Positions 1,063 through 24,486 of a DNA stretch of 24,498 nt are shown here, one piece after another. Positions within the stretch are counted from its first letter, which is position 1. Every line of letters begins with the position of its first letter. The stretch spans positions 1 through 24,498 of IMG/VR virus record IMGVR_UViG_3300049893_001328. One strand, written 5' to 3'. Source of the DNA: a virus. The notes below the pieces were generated by a model. That model was not told the DNA's origin, searched no databases, and worked only from the letters and a program-made list of their open reading frames with translations. The translations under genes were made by a program, and so were the position numbers.

Positions 1063-1143
1063 TTACGGTGTCGCAACAAATTTCTTCGTCACTCCGCCAA
1101 CGGTTATTTTTAGCGAATCATTTGACAGAGTGATATTTGTTAT
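1063..1143 (-). CDS. possible 26-residue micro-ORF without an ATG start
   Basis: The gap between the fibre gene and the next tail gene holds an open frame reading ITNITLSNDSLKITVGGVTK and then six more residues to a TAA at 1063. It looks protein-like (two amphipathic strands), but there is no ATG, GTG or TTG in frame; an upstream TAG closes the frame about eight codons earlier. The first plausible codon is an ATA at 1143, preceded by AGAGGTGG, which overlaps the fibre stop codon. Alternatives are an alternative C-terminus of the fibre reached by frameshifting, a decayed gene, or chance. Confidence 0.25.
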   Translation of the reverse strand: MTNITLSNDSLKITVGGVTKKFVATP

Positions 1144-3449
1144 TCTGCCACCTCTACAAGTTGTATTCTACCAACCCATCGGATAGAATCCGATACCGCA
1201 GCAGAAGTTGACTGAGTAATAAGTAAATACCCTAATGTGCTCGCGGTAACGTTGCAATCCCATCCAGTAGGAGCGTTAATAGTTGTTTTATTTACGGAGC
1301 CAACAAGAGCAGTTGTTGTTGAATCAGCATTTCTTTTTATTGCTCCTTGAAAATTCCACGATCCATTTTCGTCTGCCGTTTGAATATTTCGCGCAATAAC
1401 TTGTATATTAAAATTCCATGTAGTGTTGTTTGGCAACCTAATAGGATTTGACGTTCCACCGTTTAAATCTAGGTTATTAGTTTGTTGCCCCACAGATAGT
1501 TTACGAGCTACTAAATCCGATATTTGAGCGTCACCTTTAGCGGTAAAATAGCTTGACGCATGAGACTTTTGACCCCATAAATAGGCATTCGATTCCGACC
1601 CAGAAGCAAATGAAAATCTACCGGAAGCGTCTAAATTCTCACCCATTGCAAAACTATAAAGACCTGAAGCTGTTGCAGACTCGCCGGTTGCCAAAGAAGT
1701 AGAACCACTCGCTGTATTACTCGATCCTCCAATAACTATGGAATTTGCTCCACTTGACACATTAGATGATCCGCCGCATATTATTGATCGCAATCCAGTT
1801 GCGGTATTATTATTTCCTCCACCGACAAAAGAATTTCGAGAACTATCCATATATTTTGTAGAATCTCCAGAAACATTGTACTGCCCACCTGAAACAACGG
1901 ATGCTGTTCCAAACGCACAGTTGCTCCTACCACCAATAATAGACGAATAATTACTTGCTGCGTTATTTGTTGACCCACCACCGATATGAGTATAAATACC
2001 TGTTGCGGTATTTGTTTCACCACCGCAAATTGATGCACTGTTGGCAGATGCAGTATTGCTATTACCACCTGAAATTACAGCAAATTTACTTATGGCTTTA
2101 TTAGCAGAACCGCCACCAATGAACGGGGACTTAGAGCTATCTTGATGTATGGTAGAATCCCCAGCTAAATTGCTTTGCCCACCGGATATTGTTGCATATA
2201 TCCCATAATTCTTATTGAGCCTACCCCCAGAAATTGAGTTATAATCATCATTATTTACATTCTGTAACCCGCCACCTATATGAGAGTTTGCGCCGTATAT
2301 AATATTTGTTGTCCCTCCACACATAGAGCTATAACGACCGTCAATTAAGTTATCGTATCCCCCTGAAATTGTTGAAAATAATTTATAAGCCTTATTTGAA
2401 CCACCGCCACCGATAAATGCCGAACGGCCACTATCTGGATTCGTTTCGGTCGAGTCCCCAACAGTATTATTTTGTCCGCCTGATATCGTGCCATAGTTGC
2501 AAAAAGTTTGATTTAATCTGCCTCCAGAAATTGAATTATAGTTGCTATTGGTTTTGTTGTACGATCCACCACCTATAAAGCTATGCGTAGCACCAGTATC
2601 AATAATATGGTGTGATCCACCGGCTATAGTCGACGATATCGAATTGTACCGTATCTGGTTATCGTAAGCCCCTCCGATAATTGATAGTTCTGATAGACTA
2701 TCTATACGATTTACAAAACCAATTGTTCCACCGTGGACAACGCTTGACCGAGCTTTTATTATATTGCCAGGATATCCAATGTTTGCAGAAGGTTCGCCTC
2801 CCCTTATTTCAGTTGTCAATCTGTTTTCAAAGGTGCTTTTCCCGTAATTAAAAATTCCACCGTTACTTATATCATCCCAATCCCCGCATGAATATATTAT
2901 TGCATTTGTATCGAGCGAGATTGTATCTCCATTATCAGGTATTAGCTTTGCGCCATTTTCAAAATAGCAAACTCCATAGATGGTAAGATTAGACGCTACA
3001 CGATATTTTTTAGTAAATACTTTTTTAATAGTTATTGCTGACATTTTTTTAAGGTGCCGATAATCATCTGTTACACTATCACCATTCGCCCCCCACCACT
3101 CCGGCCTCACCTCACCTTTAAGCCCTATCACCGTGAGAGAATCCCCAAAGCACCCATCCGAAAACTTCCATCCGCTGCCAAGAAATTCGAGCGTGTCGGT
3201 GCTTGAATTATTGTAGCTGGTAAACTTGGAACTTCCGAGCATTGACGCTTTGAAAGTTGCCGGTATTTGAAGCTTTCCGCTAACAGGTAGAATACTGTTT
3301 ATATAATGTGTTTCAAAGTTCGATGCCCCAACCTGGGCAACACGCTGATTGAAAGTTGTAAATGATGTTGTCGGAGTGCTGACACCCTGCTTCACATCAA
3401 CTGCAAAACCAATTGTAAACAAAGATAAAACTAATAATAGCTTTTTCAT
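1140..3449 (-). CDS. tail fibre/adhesin: signal peptide, pectate-lyase-like segment, YadA-like repeats
   Basis: 769 residues. Residues 1-16 (MKKLLLVLSLFTIGFA) look like a Sec signal peptide with a G-F-A cleavage site. At about 113-130, VRPEWWGANGDSVTDD is the motif typical of pectate-lyase-superfamily tailspikes. From about 255 to 640 the protein is a long series of roughly 14-residue units of the type GG-x-N-x-A-x-G-x-x-S-x-I-x-GG, like the left-handed beta-roll of YadA heads. The last 120 residues form a non-repetitive domain that probably caps the trimer or binds the receptor. The ATG overlaps the stop of the upstream gene (ATGA). As the largest protein of the tail-tip cluster it is most likely a host-recognition fibre. 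The signal peptide is odd for a virion protein. No enzymatic residues can be assigned. Confidence 0.8.
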   Translation of the reverse strand: MKKLLLVLSLFTIGFAVDVKQGVSTPTTSFTTFNQRVAQVGASNFETHYINSILPVSGKLQIPATFKASMLGSSKFTSYNNSSTDTLEFLGSGWKFSDGCFGDSLTVIGLKGEVRPEWWGANGDSVTDDYRHLKKMSAITIKKVFTKKYRVASNLTIYGVCYFENGAKLIPDNGDTISLDTNAIIYSCGDWDDISNGGIFNYGKSTFENRLTTEIRGGEPSANIGYPGNIIKARSSVVHGGTIGFVNRIDSLSELSIIGGAYDNQIRYNSISSTIAGGSHHIIDTGATHSFIGGGSYNKTNSNYNSISGGRLNQTFCNYGTISGGQNNTVGDSTETNPDSGRSAFIGGGGSNKAYKLFSTISGGYDNLIDGRYSSMCGGTTNIIYGANSHIGGGLQNVNNDDYNSISGGRLNKNYGIYATISGGQSNLAGDSTIHQDSSKSPFIGGGSANKAISKFAVISGGNSNTASANSASICGGETNTATGIYTHIGGGSTNNAASNYSSIIGGRSNCAFGTASVVSGGQYNVSGDSTKYMDSSRNSFVGGGNNNTATGLRSIICGGSSNVSSGANSIVIGGSSNTASGSTSLATGESATASGLYSFAMGENLDASGRFSFASGSESNAYLWGQKSHASSYFTAKGDAQISDLVARKLSVGQQTNNLDLNGGTSNPIRLPNNTTWNFNIQVIARNIQTADENGSWNFQGAIKRNADSTTTALVGSVNKTTINAPTGWDCNVTASTLGYLLITQSTSAAVSDSIRWVGRIQLVEVAE
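1614..2480 (-). repeat. three higher-order repeats of about 98-99 codons in the fibre gene
   Basis: Three long units start at 2480, 2183 and 1889. Each begins with GGQ-x-N, then has GDST followed by a short insert containing DS, then F-(I/V)-GGG, and is filled out by about seven 14-residue coils. A partial fourth unit precedes them near residue 280. The units match at protein level but are diverged in DNA, so they are old duplications. Boundaries are approximate, especially for the last unit. Confidence 0.7.
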
Positions 3450-4375
3450 GATAGCACAAATTCCCCTTCTGGATAATAAGCCTCTCCGTCTTCGAAATAT
3501 ATTTCTTTATTGCTGTAAACAACCGCAGGAATATACGATTTTTTCCACAGTTTTATACTCGTTTTGAACAGATTAAAATTGTCGTGCGTTATAATTATTT
3601 CATTACTCAAAAGTTTGCAAGTATACTCTCCACCTTCTCCCCCATTAAGCCCTACGGAATCGCATCCTATGCCGAATAGCCAAGTATTGCGCGGTGCGTT
3701 TATTACTATGTCTCCGTTGCGTATTGTTTGCAGGTAGGTGATTAGTGCAGCTGCGTTACCTGGTCGCATTTCAAGCGCAAGATTAGTCTCAATCACATCG
3801 CACGAAGTCCCGATGTCCACCGATGAAACCACGCCCCCGCGTGATACCTCGCGGATGATCGAGAAATCATTGGTAACATCGGGAAAAGATTGAACCGGTC
3901 GAAGTGTCGTGACCGTGCCTATTTGCAATGACCCTTCATTTTCGGCAGCAACCGGAGTATATGCCGGTGCTGTCACAAGCATGAGTGATATTTTGTTGCT
4001 ATGCTGAAGGTACGGATTTAATTGCGATTGTCCTGGCTTATAGTTCACCACTGAGCAAACGAAGTCCCCAGAATCGCCTTTATCTGGAAGAAACGGGAAG
4101 AAGCCGCTATCAAGCCCCAGCGACATAGTGATATTATTACCGCGCCCCTTTGTAACATCGTTCAAAAACGCATACAATGCGCTCTGTTGATAGTCAGGTA
4201 GCAACCATGTATCTATATCGCACTGCCTCGAATCGTAGATTGTGCCATCGTCCCTGATCTTATACGCGCCATTTACGCGCGAATAATGCAGCCCCATGCG
4301 CAATGTACTCGTATACATAAAGTACGGCTGCTTAATCGTAACGCTGCTTGATCCTTGGCTTAACGTAATGCTCAT
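3446..4375 (-). CDS. putative distal tail/tail tip protein
   Basis: 309 residues, between tape measure and fibre, where long-tailed phages encode the distal tail protein or tail hub. The start ATG at 4375 overlaps the tape-measure stop (ATGA), and its own stop overlaps the fibre start, so translation is probably coupled. The sequence is beta-rich without signal peptide or coiled coil. Visible features are a Tyr/Phe-rich N-terminus (IKQPYFMYTSTLRMGLHYSR at about 14-33), several Gly/Asp turns, and a C-terminus with YFEDGEAYYPEG. I recognise no catalytic motif. Assignment rests on gene order and a length typical of distal tail proteins (about 250-320 residues). Confidence 0.65.
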   Translation of the reverse strand: MSITLSQGSSSVTIKQPYFMYTSTLRMGLHYSRVNGAYKIRDDGTIYDSRQCDIDTWLLPDYQQSALYAFLNDVTKGRGNNITMSLGLDSGFFPFLPDKGDSGDFVCSVVNYKPGQSQLNPYLQHSNKISLMLVTAPAYTPVAAENEGSLQIGTVTTLRPVQSFPDVTNDFSIIREVSRGGVVSSVDIGTSCDVIETNLALEMRPGNAAALITYLQTIRNGDIVINAPRNTWLFGIGCDSVGLNGGEGGEYTCKLLSNEIIITHDNFNLFKTSIKLWKKSYIPAVVYSNKEIYFEDGEAYYPEGEFVLS

Positions 4376-6021
4376 ATCTGCCTTGCCAATCGGTTCTGGA
4401 TATCACGCACTAGTTGATCACCTTGACCGCTTCTAAGCTGTGCCCTAAGTGTTTCTGTGATGTTTCCTGAGCTGTCCATGATAGTCACGTTCATCGAGGC
4501 GTTTGTGGTCATGTTGCGCGTTTGAGTGTTATTGTATACCGATGCCCCGCGCGGGAGGTTGACGTATTCTGGGCCATTCTCACCGACAAGCGACATACCA
4601 CCGCCTTGGTATGCTGTTCCGGTAGCGAATTTAGCGTTGCTAATTGCTACCTGTTGAGCGATACCCATTGCAGCGGCGAAACCTACAGCAACCGGATTAG
4701 GTAGAGCCTTGGTAATTGCAACGGCTGTATTGATAAACGCCTCGACACGCGCGATATTCTTTTTCTCTTGTGCGCTTCGCTTGTTTGCTCCGGCAATGGC
4801 AGAGAATAGTTGGCCAGCTCCTGAAATACCGTTAACAATCTGAACACGTCTATTTTCTTCCGCTATTTTTGCCTTTTCTTTTTCGTCTTTAACCCATTTT
4901 TTAAAACTCTCTTCAGCTCTTGCATCTAATTCATCTTGCATAACCGTATTTATATAAACGATATTTTCTGCTTTTTTTCTTTCAAGCTCAATCTTTGCAT
5001 CAATCTCTTTATTGTGTATATCCATTTCTGGCGATTCGCCTTTAACCGTACCGCCAACCATCCAAGAGGGGGAAGCAGCAAGAGCTTCAGCTTCTTTTTT
5101 TGCCTTTTCGCTATTTTCTTTATTTATCTTTTGCCGTTCTCGTTCATTGGATAGCCTTTCTGCTTCTTTCCTTGTAATTTCTGTTTGTGTTTCAAGTTCT
5201 TTTTTCTTTACTTCTGCGGCCTTATTTGCCTCTAAAATATTAGTCCCGGCAAGCGACCGCCCTAAATCATACCAAGCCTTAAACCAAGCTTTAGGAGCTT
5301 CAGAAACTACTTTACCAACTTTTTCACCGATATTTTTCATTGCTACTTCATATTGATCGAAAGAATCTTTTGCCGCAGCTACGGCAGTAGCTTGGTTCAA
5401 AAATTTTGCATTCAATCCAAGTATTACACTATCAATTCTTTCAACGCTTCCTTTTGCACCGTCAACTGATATTTTAAACCGTCCAAGTTCTTCACTATCA
5501 TCGGATATTCCTCTGGCAACCATATTGGCCGCGCTTGCCATATCCATACCTGTAGCCGCTGCAAGGTCAAGCACTGCCGGAACAAGCCTTTTAATCTGTT
5601 CCTCGTTTTTCACATAGTTTGCAAGTTTTATTTGTACCGCTGTTATTTCTTCATTATCTACTATTAATTTTCTACCTAAAGCATCGGCCTGTTCATTTAA
5701 AGCCTGAGAAGTATATCCAAGTGCTGTCCTTAATTGCATTTGCATTTGAACAGATTCTTTGTATTCAAGTCTTGCGCTTTTTAAAAAACCTGTTACTTTG
5801 GTTACAACCTCAAAACCAGCATAAGCCAATACAGCGCCTTTAATCGCATTGACAAACGATCCCTTAATCTCATTCCCCAAACTCGCAAATGCGCCCTTGC
5901 TCTCGGCCAACTTCTTGTTAGCCGCACCGAAATTAGTTTCCATGTTCGAGCGTATCGCTTTGATCTCACTTGACATCTCGTCTATGAGCGATAACTTTAC
6001 AACTACTTCTTCATCAGCCAT
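4372..6021 (-). CDS. tail tape measure protein
   Basis: 549 residues. The N-terminal half has the helix-rich TMP core, with a hydrophobic stretch (FVNAIKGAVLAYAGFEVV near residue 60) and the conserved-looking ALGYTSQALNEQADALG and AAATGMDMASAANMVARGIS segments. About 260-400 is charged coiled coil. The C-terminus (465-549) has FATGTAYQGGGMSLVGENGP and LPRGASVYNN, the usual C-terminal signature of tape measure proteins. It directly follows the frameshifted chaperone, the standard order. At about 1.5 angstrom per residue, a general rule for these proteins, it predicts a tail near 80 nm. The start at 6021 is preceded by AGGTAGATT. Function: sets tail length and is later ejected to help DNA entry. 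Confidence 0.92.
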   Translation of the reverse strand: MADEEVVVKLSLIDEMSSEIKAIRSNMETNFGAANKKLAESKGAFASLGNEIKGSFVNAIKGAVLAYAGFEVVTKVTGFLKSARLEYKESVQMQMQLRTALGYTSQALNEQADALGRKLIVDNEEITAVQIKLANYVKNEEQIKRLVPAVLDLAAATGMDMASAANMVARGISDDSEELGRFKISVDGAKGSVERIDSVILGLNAKFLNQATAVAAAKDSFDQYEVAMKNIGEKVGKVVSEAPKAWFKAWYDLGRSLAGTNILEANKAAEVKKKELETQTEITRKEAERLSNERERQKINKENSEKAKKEAEALAASPSWMVGGTVKGESPEMDIHNKEIDAKIELERKKAENIVYINTVMQDELDARAEESFKKWVKDEKEKAKIAEENRRVQIVNGISGAGQLFSAIAGANKRSAQEKKNIARVEAFINTAVAITKALPNPVAVGFAAAMGIAQQVAISNAKFATGTAYQGGGMSLVGENGPEYVNLPRGASVYNNTQTRNMTTNASMNVTIMDSSGNITETLRAQLRSGQGDQLVRDIQNRLARQI

Positions 6022-6028
6022 AATCTAC

Positions 6029-6466
6029 CTATTTTCCTAAATTATTCGCATTGTCAATTTCTATCTGTTCGCGCTTATTGCACATAAACCCACAAATAGA
6101 AAAAGCCTCCAGTAGTCCCGAAGGCTGAAAATATCTTCCTTTATTATCTGGATACATCATGCTGTTTGTCGCTTTCCAATGCCAGAAGTAAGGAAGCACT
6201 CTATTAATATTTTGATCGCTACAGAAATTAACAGGGCACCAATCTATATGGAAAAAACCCCAGCTTATCATTTTCCTGCTTCGCTTTGCCGCTGGTGCCC
6301 TGCAAATTTCACACCCATCCAATCCGCCACAGGTACAATCTATCTGAATCTTTTGCTTTGTCTTACGTTTACATCCCCTAATCTTCTTTTGTTGATCGTT
6401 GCAATTAGCGCAATTATAAATCAGTGAGAACGGTTTATATTGTATCAAGATTGCAACAATTAACTT
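6029..6466 (-). CDS. tail assembly chaperone, -1 frameshift extension (gpGT-like), Cys-rich
   Basis: This frame has no ATG or good ribosome-binding site; its only local initiation-like codon is a TTG at 6448. It is reached from the upstream chaperone by a -1 shift on a run of nine A (6473-6465), giving a fusion of about 234 residues (89 plus 145). This is the standard lambda G/GT arrangement upstream of the tape measure. Unusually the extension has 11 cysteines, including YNCANCNDQ, IDCTCGGLDGCEIC and SICGFMCNK, suggesting zinc-binding knuckles. The C-terminal part (YFQPSGLLEAFSICGF) looks globular. In known systems the T domain recruits tail tube subunits to the chaperone-coated tape measure. 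The frameshift is inferred from sequence; a separate Cys-rich gene with a TTG start is the alternative. Confidence 0.75.
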   Translation of the reverse strand, partial: KLIVAILIQYKPFSLIYNCANCNDQQKKIRGCKRKTKQKIQIDCTCGGLDGCEICRAPAAKRSRKMISWGFFHIDWCPVNFCSDQNINRVLPYFWHWKATNSMMYPDNKGRYFQPSGLLEAFSICGFMCNKREQIEIDNANNLGK

Positions 6467-6732
6467 TTTTTTTCCTCTGCTGTAAGTCTGTTCGCTTGAT
6501 TCCAGAACTTGATTATTTCGGCCTGCTCATCGCTATTGTAATCGGCTTTCGGAGAGATAAGAATTTTCTCTATGAAAGCATCAATCACTTTGAGCCTGTC
6601 CTTGTAATCAAGCTTTTCATCATAAATGTCGAACATCTCTTTTTCGAGTGATCCGGTTTTCGGCTTAAACTTCCAGACCACTCCGTCAACGTCTTTATGC
6701 TCTACTGATTCTTTCGATGATACGGGTATCAT
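6460..6732 (-). CDS. tail assembly chaperone (gpG-like)
   Basis: 90 residues, between tail tube and tape measure. The protein is small, acidic and helical, with an N-terminal beta segment (VDGVVWKFKPKTGSLEKEM at about 15-33) and helical repeats DRLKVIDAFIEKIL and DEQAEIIKFWNQANRL. That architecture suits G-type chaperones that coat the tape measure during tail assembly. An AAGGTG ribosome-binding site lies 8 bases before the ATG at 6732. The gene ends in the slippery A tract that feeds the downstream frame. Sequence similarity in this family is weak, so the call rests mostly on position plus the frameshift signal. Confidence 0.8.
   Translation of the reverse strand: MIPVSSKESVEHKDVDGVVWKFKPKTGSLEKEMFDIYDEKLDYKDRLKVIDAFIEKILISPKADYNSDEQAEIIKFWNQANRLTAEEKKS
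6465..6473 (-). promoter_or_regulatory. slippery A9 tract for -1 ribosomal frameshift
   Basis: On the minus strand the chaperone ends GAG GAA AAA AAA AGT TAA. The heptamer A-AAA-AAA lets both tRNAs slip back one base and read AAA AAG TTA ATT into the downstream frame, which stays open to 6029. I see only a weak possible downstream stem (ATTGT with ACAAT, 6460-6441). Confidence 0.75.
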
Positions 6733-6762
6733 GCGTATTCACCTTTCTTTTTAGGTTATTGT

Positions 6763-7728
6763 TTAGGTCGCGTCATTTATTGCGATTGTGAAATCGTTAT
6801 CAACAAACGTCCCGGTAATTTCATAGGTCTGCAATCCGTTGTCTTTGCCTACCTTTATATCACGAATCTCGCTCTTGTTTGATCCGCTAGTAATGCTGAC
6901 AAGGTAATTGGTCGCATTGCCGAACTTGATCGTTGTAGTGGCAAGCGTTCCGGCAGCCATTCCGGTAAACGGATTCTTCGCGCTTGAATCTTCGATGTAA
7001 ACTGTTGCGCTCCACTCTGCTTTTTTATTTGTAATCATTGATTGCAAATATCCGCTGTCATCGCTCATGTTCTTGATAAGCTGAACATCGTTTCCACCCT
7101 TAATGCTGAATTTCAGGATTGTCATTGCAGTACCGTTAATGGTCTGCGTGGCATTCTTCAGCATTGCAGGAGGAGCGCCAGCTATTGCGGCTATTGAATC
7201 TGTTAAATACGTGCCAGCCGCTGGCACTCCGTCAGGTACTCCCTTGCCAGTGAATGTACATACGACTGGCTTTCCAACCTCACCAGCAATCTCATAGTCG
7301 AACATTACGCTATGCGCCTTGGTGATAATAGCATCGCCAGCCGTCTTGTCTCCAGAGTATCCCCAGAGCGTCATATCAAGCCAGTTGGCAGGGATAACGC
7401 TTGTCGGTGTCCATGAATGCTTGCTTGTGGCAAGTGCATAGACCATACCGCAACAATTGAGAAACTTGCCAACATTGGGCACGGTTGCGCTTCCTGTTGG
7501 AATGATCGGCAACGATACCTTGCACTCAACAGAGCTTGACCCTGCAACGCCCTGTGGATTACCGAATATGCCTTGAGCAAGAGCCTGATCGGCAAACTCT
7601 TTTTTGTACTCAAGCGAAAAAGTATCGTCAACGGTAATGAAATCCGCTGCCGCAGGTGTTGCTTTCGTGCCTAATGCGCTTTGCACTTTGGCGGTAAGCA
7701 GTTTTAACTTTTCAAACGATGAAACCAT
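6763..7728 (-). CDS. short tail tube protein from internal start (321 residues)
   Basis: In-frame ATG at 7728, with GGAGG ending 5 bases upstream, placed exactly between the beta-helix domain and the tube domain. The predicted 321-residue product is the complete tube domain and has a normal family length. I infer it is the major tube subunit, with the 639-residue form as a minority decorated subunit. SPP1 offers a precedent for two tube versions (gp17.1 and gp17.1*), though it uses a C-terminal frameshift. Not proven; the GGAGG could be chance within the coding sequence. Confidence 0.6.
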   Translation of the reverse strand: MVSSFEKLKLLTAKVQSALGTKATPAAADFITVDDTFSLEYKKEFADQALAQGIFGNPQGVAGSSSVECKVSLPIIPTGSATVPNVGKFLNCCGMVYALATSKHSWTPTSVIPANWLDMTLWGYSGDKTAGDAIITKAHSVMFDYEIAGEVGKPVVCTFTGKGVPDGVPAAGTYLTDSIAAIAGAPPAMLKNATQTINGTAMTILKFSIKGGNDVQLIKNMSDDSGYLQSMITNKKAEWSATVYIEDSSAKNPFTGMAAGTLATTTIKFGNATNYLVSITSGSNKSEIRDIKVGKDNGLQTYEITGTFVDNDFTIAINDAT

Positions 7729-8682
7729 AGGAGCCTCCGCTTCATATACGCCGATTGACACTCGGCCTTGATAGGGTCTATTCTTTCCTGTTATATCGGT
7801 AGTATTCCACGATGAAATACTTTTAGTACCTGCATTGAATAAATCTGAATTCTTATCTATGTAAAGGAAATCATCATCGGTGCTTGTAACACTTGTAAAA
7901 TCTGCGGTTGTTATTCCGGTTATATTGTCGGTAAGTATTGCACCGCTTGACGCTATAGAATTATCAGAATCGGCACAATTTGTTATTACATTTTCAGCAC
8001 CGCCAGCGTCAAAGTCGCTTGCTACGCTACTAATTGACACAACATTTTTTAATGTAACATTTTTTGTGGCTGTAGTTGTCGGCAAGTCAACACCTTTTCC
8101 GCAACTATAAATAGAGCAGTTTTCTATTAAATGCTCTGTTCCTGTTGTATTTGCGTCTGATATTACAGCATTTATTCCAGTTGTAAAATTTGTGATTCTA
8201 CAATTTAAAACACGCTCGATATTTTCCCATCGATGTAGCTTTATAGCAGATATTGCCGGGGTAGTATTTCCACAACCAATTATAGTCAGATTTTTTAATT
8301 CTAAAAACCCGCCTTCTGTAGAAAAGTATGGAGCTAAAAGCAAAAACCCTGCTGACATACCAGTACCTGAGCTTGTTACATTTATTTTTAGTCCATCGAC
8401 ATATATTTTATCGTCTGTTGTGGTAGGATTTTTTAATAGAAATTGATAAGGTAAACTTGTTGATATTGTATAATTTCTTGTTGTATCGACAAACGTTATC
8501 GAATGTCCATTAACATGAACCTGAGGAACTCCGCTACCGTAATTTATACCTGTATTTTCAGTAAATGCACTAATTATTGTAAATGTATAGTCATCAGTTA
8601 ATGCACCAAGCGAAACAAGCCAATTCCATACAAGGCCAATGTCTGCATAGTCTCCACCTGTTCCTATAGTCTTATTAATCAT
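6763..8682 (-). CDS. tail tube protein with N-terminal parallel beta-helix domain (fusion)
   Basis: 639 residues with two clearly different parts. Residues 1 to about 315 start TIGTGGDYADIGLVWNWL and continue with repeating beta-helix-type strands (LKNLTIIGCGN, LIENCSIYSCG, VTLKNVVSIS), ending in NRPYQGRVSIGVYE, the typical end of right-handed beta-helix domains. Residues 319-639 (MVSSFEKLKLLTAKVQSALG onward) look like a tail tube protein of long-tailed phages, containing EYKKEFADQALAQGIFGN and a C-terminal beta-sandwich pattern. Tube proteins are usually 150-350 residues, so the N-terminal addition is unusual. The site before the full-length ATG is weak (GTGAGATTGTAA), whereas residue Met319 has a strong one, so long and short forms are probably both made. 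The gene sits between tail terminator and chaperone, as expected for a tube gene. Confidence 0.82.
   Translation of the reverse strand: MINKTIGTGGDYADIGLVWNWLVSLGALTDDYTFTIISAFTENTGINYGSGVPQVHVNGHSITFVDTTRNYTISTSLPYQFLLKNPTTTDDKIYVDGLKINVTSSGTGMSAGFLLLAPYFSTEGGFLELKNLTIIGCGNTTPAISAIKLHRWENIERVLNCRITNFTTGINAVISDANTTGTEHLIENCSIYSCGKGVDLPTTTATKNVTLKNVVSISSVASDFDAGGAENVITNCADSDNSIASSGAILTDNITGITTADFTSVTSTDDDFLYIDKNSDLFNAGTKSISSWNTTDITGKNRPYQGRVSIGVYEAEAPMVSSFEKLKLLTAKVQSALGTKATPAAADFITVDDTFSLEYKKEFADQALAQGIFGNPQGVAGSSSVECKVSLPIIPTGSATVPNVGKFLNCCGMVYALATSKHSWTPTSVIPANWLDMTLWGYSGDKTAGDAIITKAHSVMFDYEIAGEVGKPVVCTFTGKGVPDGVPAAGTYLTDSIAAIAGAPPAMLKNATQTINGTAMTILKFSIKGGNDVQLIKNMSDDSGYLQSMITNKKAEWSATVYIEDSSAKNPFTGMAAGTLATTTIKFGNATNYLVSITSGSNKSEIRDIKVGKDNGLQTYEITGTFVDNDFTIAINDAT
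7726..7738 (-). promoter_or_regulatory. internal ribosome-binding site inside the tail tube gene
   Basis: Minus strand GCGGAGGCTCCTATG: a five-base SD (GGAGG, 7738-7734), a five-base spacer and an ATG (7728-7726) in the frame of the gene. It is stronger than the site before the full-length start at 8682 and falls on the domain boundary. Confidence 0.6.
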
Positions 8683-8690
8683 TTACAATC

Positions 8691-9155
8691 TCACGTATTA
8701 TGAAAGTAGCAATTCCATACAGTTTCTAATTTAGTCGGGAAAAACGTATCATTCCGCTGAGTATTTATCTTCTCCGCTGAAACGAACGACAAAAAAGCTT
8801 CTTTTGACAATGGGAAATATCCGGTAATTGAATTAGTGCCGAATAGTTTCATAAGATCACTAAGGCAATTATCAAGCGCTGCATCGGCTGTAAACTCTGG
8901 TTTTACGCTTGCCGATGGTGTAATTTTTTGATCTATTGTAATAGTAATTTCAGCATTGCACATTCCATACAAGCCCTCTATACCGTCAGCCTTTGAGAAC
9001 TTGCGGTATCTTACAATTGCAGAAGGCCAGCTTGTTTGCAAAGCCTTATCCGGCTCATTCAATTGTGACCAGTTGTAATTATAGCCGCCAGCAGTGGTCA
9101 TGCCATCAATAAGAGTGGCGATCTCACCTGTGATTGTAGTTATTCGTGCAGCCAT
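8691..9155 (-). CDS. putative tail terminator/tail completion protein
   Basis: 154 residues, immediately upstream of the tail tube gene (8 bases between its TGA and the next ATG). The N-terminus is helical (ITTITGEIATLIDGM); a central part contains WPSAIVRYRKFSKADGIEGLYG and MCNAEITITIDQKI, followed by DAALDNCLSDLMKLFG, and the C-terminus is a strand (KLETVWNCYFHN). This mixed alpha-beta layout and the size match tail terminators (lambda gpU-like), which stop tube growth and join the tail to the head. No specific motif proves it; position and size are the main evidence. Confidence 0.65.
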   Translation of the reverse strand: MAARITTITGEIATLIDGMTTAGGYNYNWSQLNEPDKALQTSWPSAIVRYRKFSKADGIEGLYGMCNAEITITIDQKITPSASVKPEFTADAALDNCLSDLMKLFGTNSITGYFPLSKEAFLSFVSAEKINTQRNDTFFPTKLETVWNCYFHNT

Positions 9156-9159
9156 TGCA

Positions 9160-9558
9160 TCATATCCAAATCTGACCGCCGCCTATACGGTCGGAAGGTT
9201 CAAGGTCTGCCGATTCGTAGTAAAACATATTCTTTGTCAAATTTGGGCGAAGGAAATTGCACTTCTGAAGGTAGTAATCAAGTTTTACCTTGTAAACTTC
9301 CTGTTCTGGAATGTCGATAGTGTTCTCACCAAAGCAATCTTGACATACTAAATAGCAGTAATACGCAATAGCGTATTCTTTGATCTTATAATGGATAGGA
9401 GTATTAATATCGGTTGAAAGCAACCCGCGCTCTTGTGCGATAGATTCAATTTCAGCGTCGGTATTCGCAAGCCAAGTGGCAAGCCTGCCATCATTGCCGC
9501 TTATGAAGTTACGCACAAGGCTATCTGTTACATCTGTTGCCGGTACTATGTATGACAT
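9160..9558 (-). CDS. putative head-tail connector/adaptor protein
   Basis: 132 residues, in the connector region between coat and tail genes. It is mostly alpha-helical (DVTDSLVRNFISGNDGRL, DAEIESIAQERGL, YKIKEYAIAYYCYLVCQDCF) with a C-terminal aromatic and glycine-rich tail ending GGGQIWI. Helical proteins of this size with an unstructured C-terminal arm are typical of gp6/gp15-like head-tail adaptors. Its ATG overlaps the stop of the HK97 gp10-like gene (TAATG at 9560-9556). Assignment is by position and secondary-structure impression. Confidence 0.6.
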   Translation of the reverse strand: MSYIVPATDVTDSLVRNFISGNDGRLATWLANTDAEIESIAQERGLLSTDINTPIHYKIKEYAIAYYCYLVCQDCFGENTIDIPEQEVYKVKLDYYLQKCNFLRPNLTKNMFYYESADLEPSDRIGGGQIWI

Positions 9559-10118
9559 TATAACCCCACCGCGTCAAAGATTCGTTTTGCTGCTCCGCGC
9601 ACACGCGCAAGGAAGTATGGCTTTTGTCGGTCAAAGGCTTGAAATAAAAATGGATCGGGCTTTGTGCCTGGATGATTGACATAACCTTTACCTACGATAT
9701 TCGCACCGGCATTCTTTAGGTCTCGCCAAACTTCTCTTAAATACCCGCCTTCACCGTATGCCTGTTTAGGAACAAACCACTTTTGACCACCTTTTACAAA
9801 GAATAAAGCCGCTTTGTTTTTAGGTCTAATAACGTGCGGTTTTGTTCCGTCATGCACGTACTTTCCGTATGGTGCAACACTCTCCTCAAGCCAAACTTTG
9901 CCACTTAAACCGCTTTGCTCTACATCTTGCTGTACTGATCTAACCAATTGTCCTGTGTGTCCAGGTGCTTGACTAAACCTATGATGCAACCGCGCATCAA
10001 TCTGTATCGCTCTAAGGCTTTTGTTCAATTCCGTCCGCAATTCTTTAGCTGCAACAATCGGGATTTTCTCAAAAGCCTTAGACAGCTTTTTATAGTCGAT
10101 CTCTGCGGTGAATTGCAT
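9558..10118 (-). CDS. HK97 gp10-like head-tail/tail component protein
   Basis: 186 residues. An N-terminal helix (LSKAFEKIPIVAAKELRTEL) is followed by the family pattern VAPYGKYVHDGTKPHVIRPK (about 80-99) and later NHPGTKPDPFLFQAFDRQ, both characteristic of the HK97 gp10-like family, which acts at the head-tail interface or in tail completion. The insert AYGEGGYLREVWRDLKNAGA is longer than in minimal members. Its start overlaps the TAA of the micro-ORF at 10118 (TAATG), and its stop overlaps the next gene the same way. Confidence 0.8.
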   Translation of the reverse strand: MQFTAEIDYKKLSKAFEKIPIVAAKELRTELNKSLRAIQIDARLHHRFSQAPGHTGQLVRSVQQDVEQSGLSGKVWLEESVAPYGKYVHDGTKPHVIRPKNKAALFFVKGGQKWFVPKQAYGEGGYLREVWRDLKNAGANIVGKGYVNHPGTKPDPFLFQAFDRQKPYFLARVRGAAKRIFDAVGL

Positions 10119-23802: not shown

Positions 23803-23808
23803 ATGCCT

Positions 23809-24486
23809 ATGCCAGACTATTTTTCTCACGATTACAACGCCAGGAATGATCCAAAACTAATACGCCTTCAAATTAAAATGGGTATGGAAGGAATAGGTAT
23901 TTTTTGGTGTTTAATTGAATTAATGTATGAACAAGAAGGTTATTTATTACTATCCCAATACGAATGTTATGCGTTCGCAATACGAACGAATTACGATAAA
24001 ATAAAAAGCGTAATTGAAGATTTCGATCTGTTTGAAAATGACTCTGTAAATTTTTGGAATGAGTCTGTTTTAAGAAGATTAAAAATGCGTAACGAAAAAT
24101 CAGAAAATGCCCGCAAGTCTGTAAATAAAAGATGGTTATACGAACGTAATACGACCGTATCCAATGTGGTATACGATGGTAATACTATAAAGGAAAGTAA
24201 AGAAATAAAAGAAAAGAAAGTAAATAAAGAGTTCTCACCGCCTCCGCTTATTGAAATTGAGTCTTACTTCTTTGAAAAAGGATATACTAAAGATCATGCT
24301 AAAAGATTTTTTGATTATTATTCAACAGCAAATTGGCATGACGGGCGCGGAGCAAAACTAAAAAACTGGAAACAAAAGGCAATTGCTGTATGGTTTAAAG
24401 ATGAAGGTAAAATCGGAATGATCCAAGGTAAAAAAGAAGAATCATCACAAGAAGCTCTCGACCGCATTTATGGGAAAAGAAAATGA
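23809..24486 (+). CDS. replication-type protein with DUF4373 (Lin1244/Lin1753-like) N-terminal domain
   Basis: 225 residues from the ATG at 23809; a first ATG at 23803 lies only 3 bases after AAGG, so the second (9 bases) is preferred. The N-terminus MPDYFSHDYNARNDPKLIRL followed by MGMEGIGIFWCLIELMYEQE (about 28-47) is the DUF4373/Lin1244-like winged-helix signature. After a linker (NARKSVNKRW ... NTTVSNVVYDGN) a C-terminal helical part (PPPLIEIESYFFEKGYTKDH, FFDYYSTANWHDGRGAKLKN) resembles the DnaD-like end of phage replication proteins. Likely role: origin binding or helicase-loader recruitment. The last bases overlap the next start. Confidence 0.8.
   Translation: MPDYFSHDYNARNDPKLIRLQIKMGMEGIGIFWCLIELMYEQEGYLLLSQYECYAFAIRTNYDKIKSVIEDFDLFENDSVNFWNESVLRRLKMRNEKSENARKSVNKRWLYERNTTVSNVVYDGNTIKESKEIKEKKVNKEFSPPPLIEIESYFFEKGYTKDHAKRFFDYYSTANWHDGRGAKLKNWKQKAIAVWFKDEGKIGMIQGKKEESSQEALDRIYGKRK

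Follow-up and report, generated by a model that had tools for sequence, protein, structure and literature searches.

A tail tube gene fused at its 5' end and carrying a candidate internal start at the fusion seam

Analysis of the window, a 24,498-nucleotide stretch of viral DNA, revealed on its minus strand a single open frame (8682-6763; 1920 nt, 639 aa, ATG to TAA) in which a beta-helix-like N-terminal domain is fused to a complete tail tube protein (TTP), with a Shine-Dalgarno (SD) sequence and an in-frame start codon located exactly at the seam. Relatives encode the tube protein in plain form, or fused at the same Met to a LamG domain. It is fairly likely that this nested-start gene, derived by in-frame insertion of a surface domain, yields mostly plain TTP together with a minority of subunits bearing an N-terminal adhesin. 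The balance also tips slightly toward a wider proposal, in which phages of this lineage would display exchangeable, fast-changing adhesins on the N-terminus of some tube subunits, with the ratio of the two starts setting the fraction and the ancestral ribosome site surviving the domain swaps.

The fused frame and its two starts

Features given here by window coordinates lie on the minus strand unless noted otherwise. Residues 1-318 (7729-8682) comprise the N-terminal domain, and residues 319-639 (6763-7728) make up the 321-aa TTP, which would also be the product of internal initiation (~34 kDa); no stop codon separates the two halves of the 639-codon frame. Within the coding sequence, the SD element GGAGG (7738-7734) is followed by a 5-nt spacer (7733-7729) and then by the ATG of Met319 (7728-7726), which is invariant in the relatives and is immediately preceded in the protein by a short linker, YEAEAP. 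The frame, its coordinates and the GGAGG-5-ATG at the junction are exactly as described in the original prediction. A recoded stop at the seam was ruled out, there being no stop codon at that position and the frame being simply open. The full-length start codon (8680-8682) has a weak SD and lies 8 nt past the stop of the upstream gene.

SD strength was evaluated as the duplex energy with the 16S tail, with the 93 in-frame internal ATGs of the window's minus-strand genes as the compared set. The ATG at 7728 gave -9.5 kcal/mol, the strongest of the 93, and the major capsid gene start gave -8.0 kcal/mol; the full-length start at 8682 gave -4.0 kcal/mol, against a median of -5.1 over 25 gene starts. 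By duplex energy, the internal site is on a par with good gene start sites elsewhere in this genome. A cruder score, of total energy, likewise rated the internal start far better than the full-length start (1.9 and 13.8, respectively), and placed the internal ATG fourth among the 93, with three other internal ATGs and 4 of 24 gene starts scoring better. The predicted contrast between a weak full-length start and a strong internal site was borne out by both scores. The 1920-nt frame contains no GGAGG other than the one at the seam. When synonymous codons of the beta-helix part were permuted, 3% of shuffles produced a GGAGG correctly spaced from the ATG, and the site alone is thus only moderately improbable, suggestive but not decisive. 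The apparent homology of the site in relatives, described below, is a stronger argument than the site itself.

Identity of the tube half

The TTP part of the window shares 63% identity with the plain TTP (327 aa) of a relative (L002) and 80% with the TTP part of a sister phage (L005). Profile matches to the tube family PF18906 (Phage_tube_2) are weak: the window's TTP part gave none up to E=10, and the L002 and L005 proteins gave E=0.00072 and E=0.0014, each under the gathering score. The TTP of Agrobacterium phage JP1 matches this family at E=9.3e-17. A protein search with the L002 TTP led to the annotated JP1 tail tube protein (4e-5), and a profile of the family aligned to it from residues 9-312 against 9-303 of 316 (95.6%), almost end to end. 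A profile search of the PDB returned chance matches only, and among cultured phages and GTDB genomes no relatives were found beyond this weak JP1 link.

Gene order fits a tail tube. The window contains a siphophage tail module in the order terminase, portal, head morphogenesis, capsid, neck, terminator, fused TTP, G/GT-like chaperones and tape measure. Directly upstream of the fusion, in the tail-terminator position, is a 154-aa tail gene (8691-9155), whose orthologue directly precedes the plain TTP in L002 and the LamG-TTP in the sister phage. Downstream are a 90-aa tail assembly chaperone in the lambda G position (6460-6732), which ends in a conserved A9G run, its lambda GT-like continuation in the -1 frame (6029-6448), and then the tape measure gene (4372-6021). 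The JP1 TTP gene is also upstream of a tape measure gene. Together, the JP1 alignment from residue 9 to residue 9 and the order of the tail module indicate that a complete tube protein naturally begins at residue 319.

The N-terminal half

For residues 1-318 the assignment is less direct. The NCBIfam profile choice_anch_Q (NF041518) matched residues 277-315 at E=0.0055 (16.9 bits, cut-off 25), and the domain terminates in a choice-of-anchor-Q type motif (...GRVSIGVYE) four residues short of the seam. A beta-helix is plausible for this domain. No Pfam profile matched the N-terminal half, the confidence of AlphaFold modelling was very low (pLDDT 35), and neither tblastn against phages and plasmids nor viral_contigs yielded a relative of the domain. 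Of the two halves originally proposed, the tube-like C-terminus is supported by its homologues, and the N-terminal beta-helix stays plausible with thin sequence support. The N-terminal domain has 36% GC (GC3 23%) and the TTP part 47% (GC3 48%), a gap that would be expected of an acquired module. A beta-helix in this position would probably serve as a glycan-binding or glycan-degrading adhesin.

Plain and LamG-fused relatives

Relatives were drawn from IMG/VR and consist of L002, with the plain TTP, and six contigs of one sister phage (L005-L010). In L002, AGGAGG and an ATG occur at the homologous Met, and the TTP gene is flanked by orthologues of the genes flanking the fusion in the window. 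The sister phage encodes a 522-aa LamG-TTP, open in all six contigs, whose in-frame junction coincides with the Met at the seam of the window. Its LamG domain was identified by PF13385 (Laminin_G_3; E=1.1e-16, 61.8 bits, gathering score 27.6), and has no detectable similarity to the N-terminal domain of the window. The outer start in L005 is an ATG at 6395, 11 nt past the upstream stop; the frame as listed opens at an upstream TTG and is 527 aa long, and the ATG is the likelier start. One further candidate, L012, picked up by a DNA pattern, was an unrelated chance match. The presence of a different domain at the identical seam in the sister phage indicates that the fusion is more than an isolated accident. 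The two fused genes may have arisen by separate fusions, or a single ancestral fusion may have had its domain swapped later. The N-terminal domain appears to be a swappable module, beta-helix-like in the window, LamG in the sister phage, and absent from L002.

The 11 nt preceding the Met are CGGAGGCTCCT in the window, AGGATGGTCCT in L005 and AGGAGGGTTAT in L002, with an SD-like block in the same register. In the fused lineages this 11-nt block encodes different residues, and in L002 it encodes none. The likeness of these 11 nt across three lineages, and the unchanged position of the SD, suggest that the unfused gene kept its ribosome site when domains were added. In the LamG lineage, duplex energies were -7.0 kcal/mol for the inner and -2.7 for the outer start; as in the window, the inner start scores as the stronger of the two. 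The inner SD of this lineage reads AGGA, a weak site, and permuting synonymous codons there produces SD-like four-mers in 41% of cases; shared ancestry alone could account for the Met retained at the seam. The original prediction counted a lack of conservation of the internal site in homologues among the results that would speak against it, and conservation was found: the Met is invariant and an SD-like block is present in all three lineages, with that of the LamG lineage weaker and statistically unremarkable by itself. The window has a strong SD and start nested in frame that are kept in relatives, the SD being weak in the LamG lineage.

Allele exchange in the LamG domain

The six sister contigs are otherwise near-identical, with their variation in the LamG part occurring as clustered allele exchange. 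Of the 606 nt of the LamG part (L005, 6395-7000), 40 are variable, compared with 4 of 963 nt in the TTP part, and the 1.4 kb upstream has 12. Between diverged LamG alleles, pairwise synonymous change is ~0.05-0.12 per site and the nonsynonymous/synonymous ratio ~0.2-0.6. These alleles look imported and diverged, yet apparently constrained, and exchanged much faster than their surroundings. Such continued constraint suggests that the outer LamG part is probably translated and functional, and the domain appears to change like a surface-recognition part. On the pattern of variable sites and the LamG copy number, a diversity-generating retroelement was rejected as the source of the variation, as there are many synonymous third-position changes in mosaic blocks and only one LamG copy was detected per record; allele import fits better.

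Proposed origin and expression of two tube forms

It is proposed that a surface-binding domain was inserted in frame at the 5' end of the TTP gene, upstream of that gene's own ribosome-binding site, which would have been retained as coding sequence inside the fusion. Initiation at 8682, weak and possibly aided by coupling to the upstream gene, whose stop is 8 nt away, would give the 639-aa beta-helix-tube fusion, and strong initiation at 7728 the plain 321-aa tube protein. If both starts are used in a ratio that makes the long form the minority, and both products enter the tube, mixed hexamer rings would display a minority of N-terminal beta-helix domains on the tail. In solved tubes, ring-ring contacts involve the TTP N-terminus (PMC8718954), an arrangement that would make a bulky N-terminal fusion awkward and also fits a minority form. 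The original interpretation along these lines is supported in part, through the conserved internal site, the naturally plain TTP of L002 and the second domain at the same seam; that both starts are used, with the long form the minority and its beta-helix on the tail surface, stands as a prediction.

Production of the full-length protein only, with the N-terminal domain on every subunit and the internal ATG a relic of the unfused ancestor, is regarded as unlikely. Such a reading would accommodate the long frames intact in two lineages, the outer starts close behind the upstream stops in both, and the precedent of C-terminal Ig domains, which normally decorate all subunits (PMC8718954). However, a weak outer start sits poorly with a protein as abundant in virions as TTP, the inner site equals that of the capsid gene in strength, GGAGG is retained at the seam, and the N-terminus of solved TTPs is engaged in the ring contacts noted above.

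The occurrence of an unrelated domain at the same seam in six sister contigs, all open and apparently constrained, weighs against a reading considered quite improbable, namely that only plain TTP is made and the beta-helix is a former separate upstream gene whose stop was lost recently, or in assembly, leaving a fusion product of no use. Two accidental in-frame stop losses at one seam are unlikely, even though the window domain terminates like free-standing beta-helix proteins (with the choice_anch_Q motif), GC shifts sharply at the seam, and the window is one metagenome contig. Cleavage at the seam as the virion assembles, which would turn the full-length protein into plain TTP and a beta-helix either released or still attached, could make use of the short linker at the domain boundary (YEAEAP before the Met), but is highly improbable, there being no obvious protease site common to the seams of the window (YEAEAP) and the LamG lineage (NNQDGP), and the start codon and SD at the seam accounting for a short form without a protease.

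Comparison with known tail tubes

The proposed two-form expression from a nested start has its closest parallel in Bacillus phage SPP1, in which gp17.1 and gp17.1* occur at 3:1 and the latter carries an FN3 domain added at the C-terminus by a +1 frameshift (PMC8718954, PMC6316719). In both cases one TTP gene would specify plain and extended subunits (predicted, for the window), with part of the tube displaying an extra domain. In lactococcal 936 phages, C-terminal, frameshift-made TpeX extensions of the MTP bind host cells (PMC6669499). As proposed here from sequence, the window would resemble 936 MTP-TpeX in having a domain of carbohydrate-binding type on a fraction of subunits, with modules differing between phages (PMC6669499); the 936 domain set is, however, a different one. 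Unlike the C-terminal frameshift extensions of SPP1 and the 936 phages, that of the window is N-terminal and in the same frame, and start-codon choice would be the switch. In lambda gpV and T5 pb6, a C-terminal Ig domain is present on every subunit. The JP1 TTP (PF18906), a 316-aa protein with which the 321-aa part of the window aligns nearly end to end, is without an N-terminal domain, as is the TTP of L002, in contrast to the window. Laminin_G_3, or concanavalin A-like, domains (PF13385) are present at this seam in the sister phage, with the beta-helix-like domain in their place in the window. The literature searched, in which subscription papers are thinly covered, yielded no example of an internal start in a tail tube gene.

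Known decorated tubes thus have C-terminal extensions, either on all subunits or on a fraction of them via frameshift. If the proposal is true, a swappable N-terminal module under a nested start would represent a second, independent solution for decorating tubes; it would also mean that the tube N-terminus tolerates large domains, and would offer a simple natural route to low-copy display of a chosen domain on a phage tail. The LamG allele exchange suggests that selection in host contact acts on the tube surface itself, and not just on the tail tip.

Mosaicism and other genes of the window

The region at 6460-10118 is mosaic. Its neck genes are nearest to L002 (68-70% identity), and its tube and chaperone genes are nearest to one of the sister contigs (L006; 80-82%), which places a recombination boundary close to where the fused gene begins. 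L002 and L006 share the A9G slippery run of the window's G/GT-like chaperone pair, which implies a -1 frameshift. Elsewhere in the tail region, a 769-aa protein (1140-3449) has a weak beta-roll match (ice-binding-like, PF21300) at residues 538-613. At the contig end, on the plus strand (23803-24486), a 227-aa gene product has a Lin1244/Lin1753-like N-terminal domain (PF14297).
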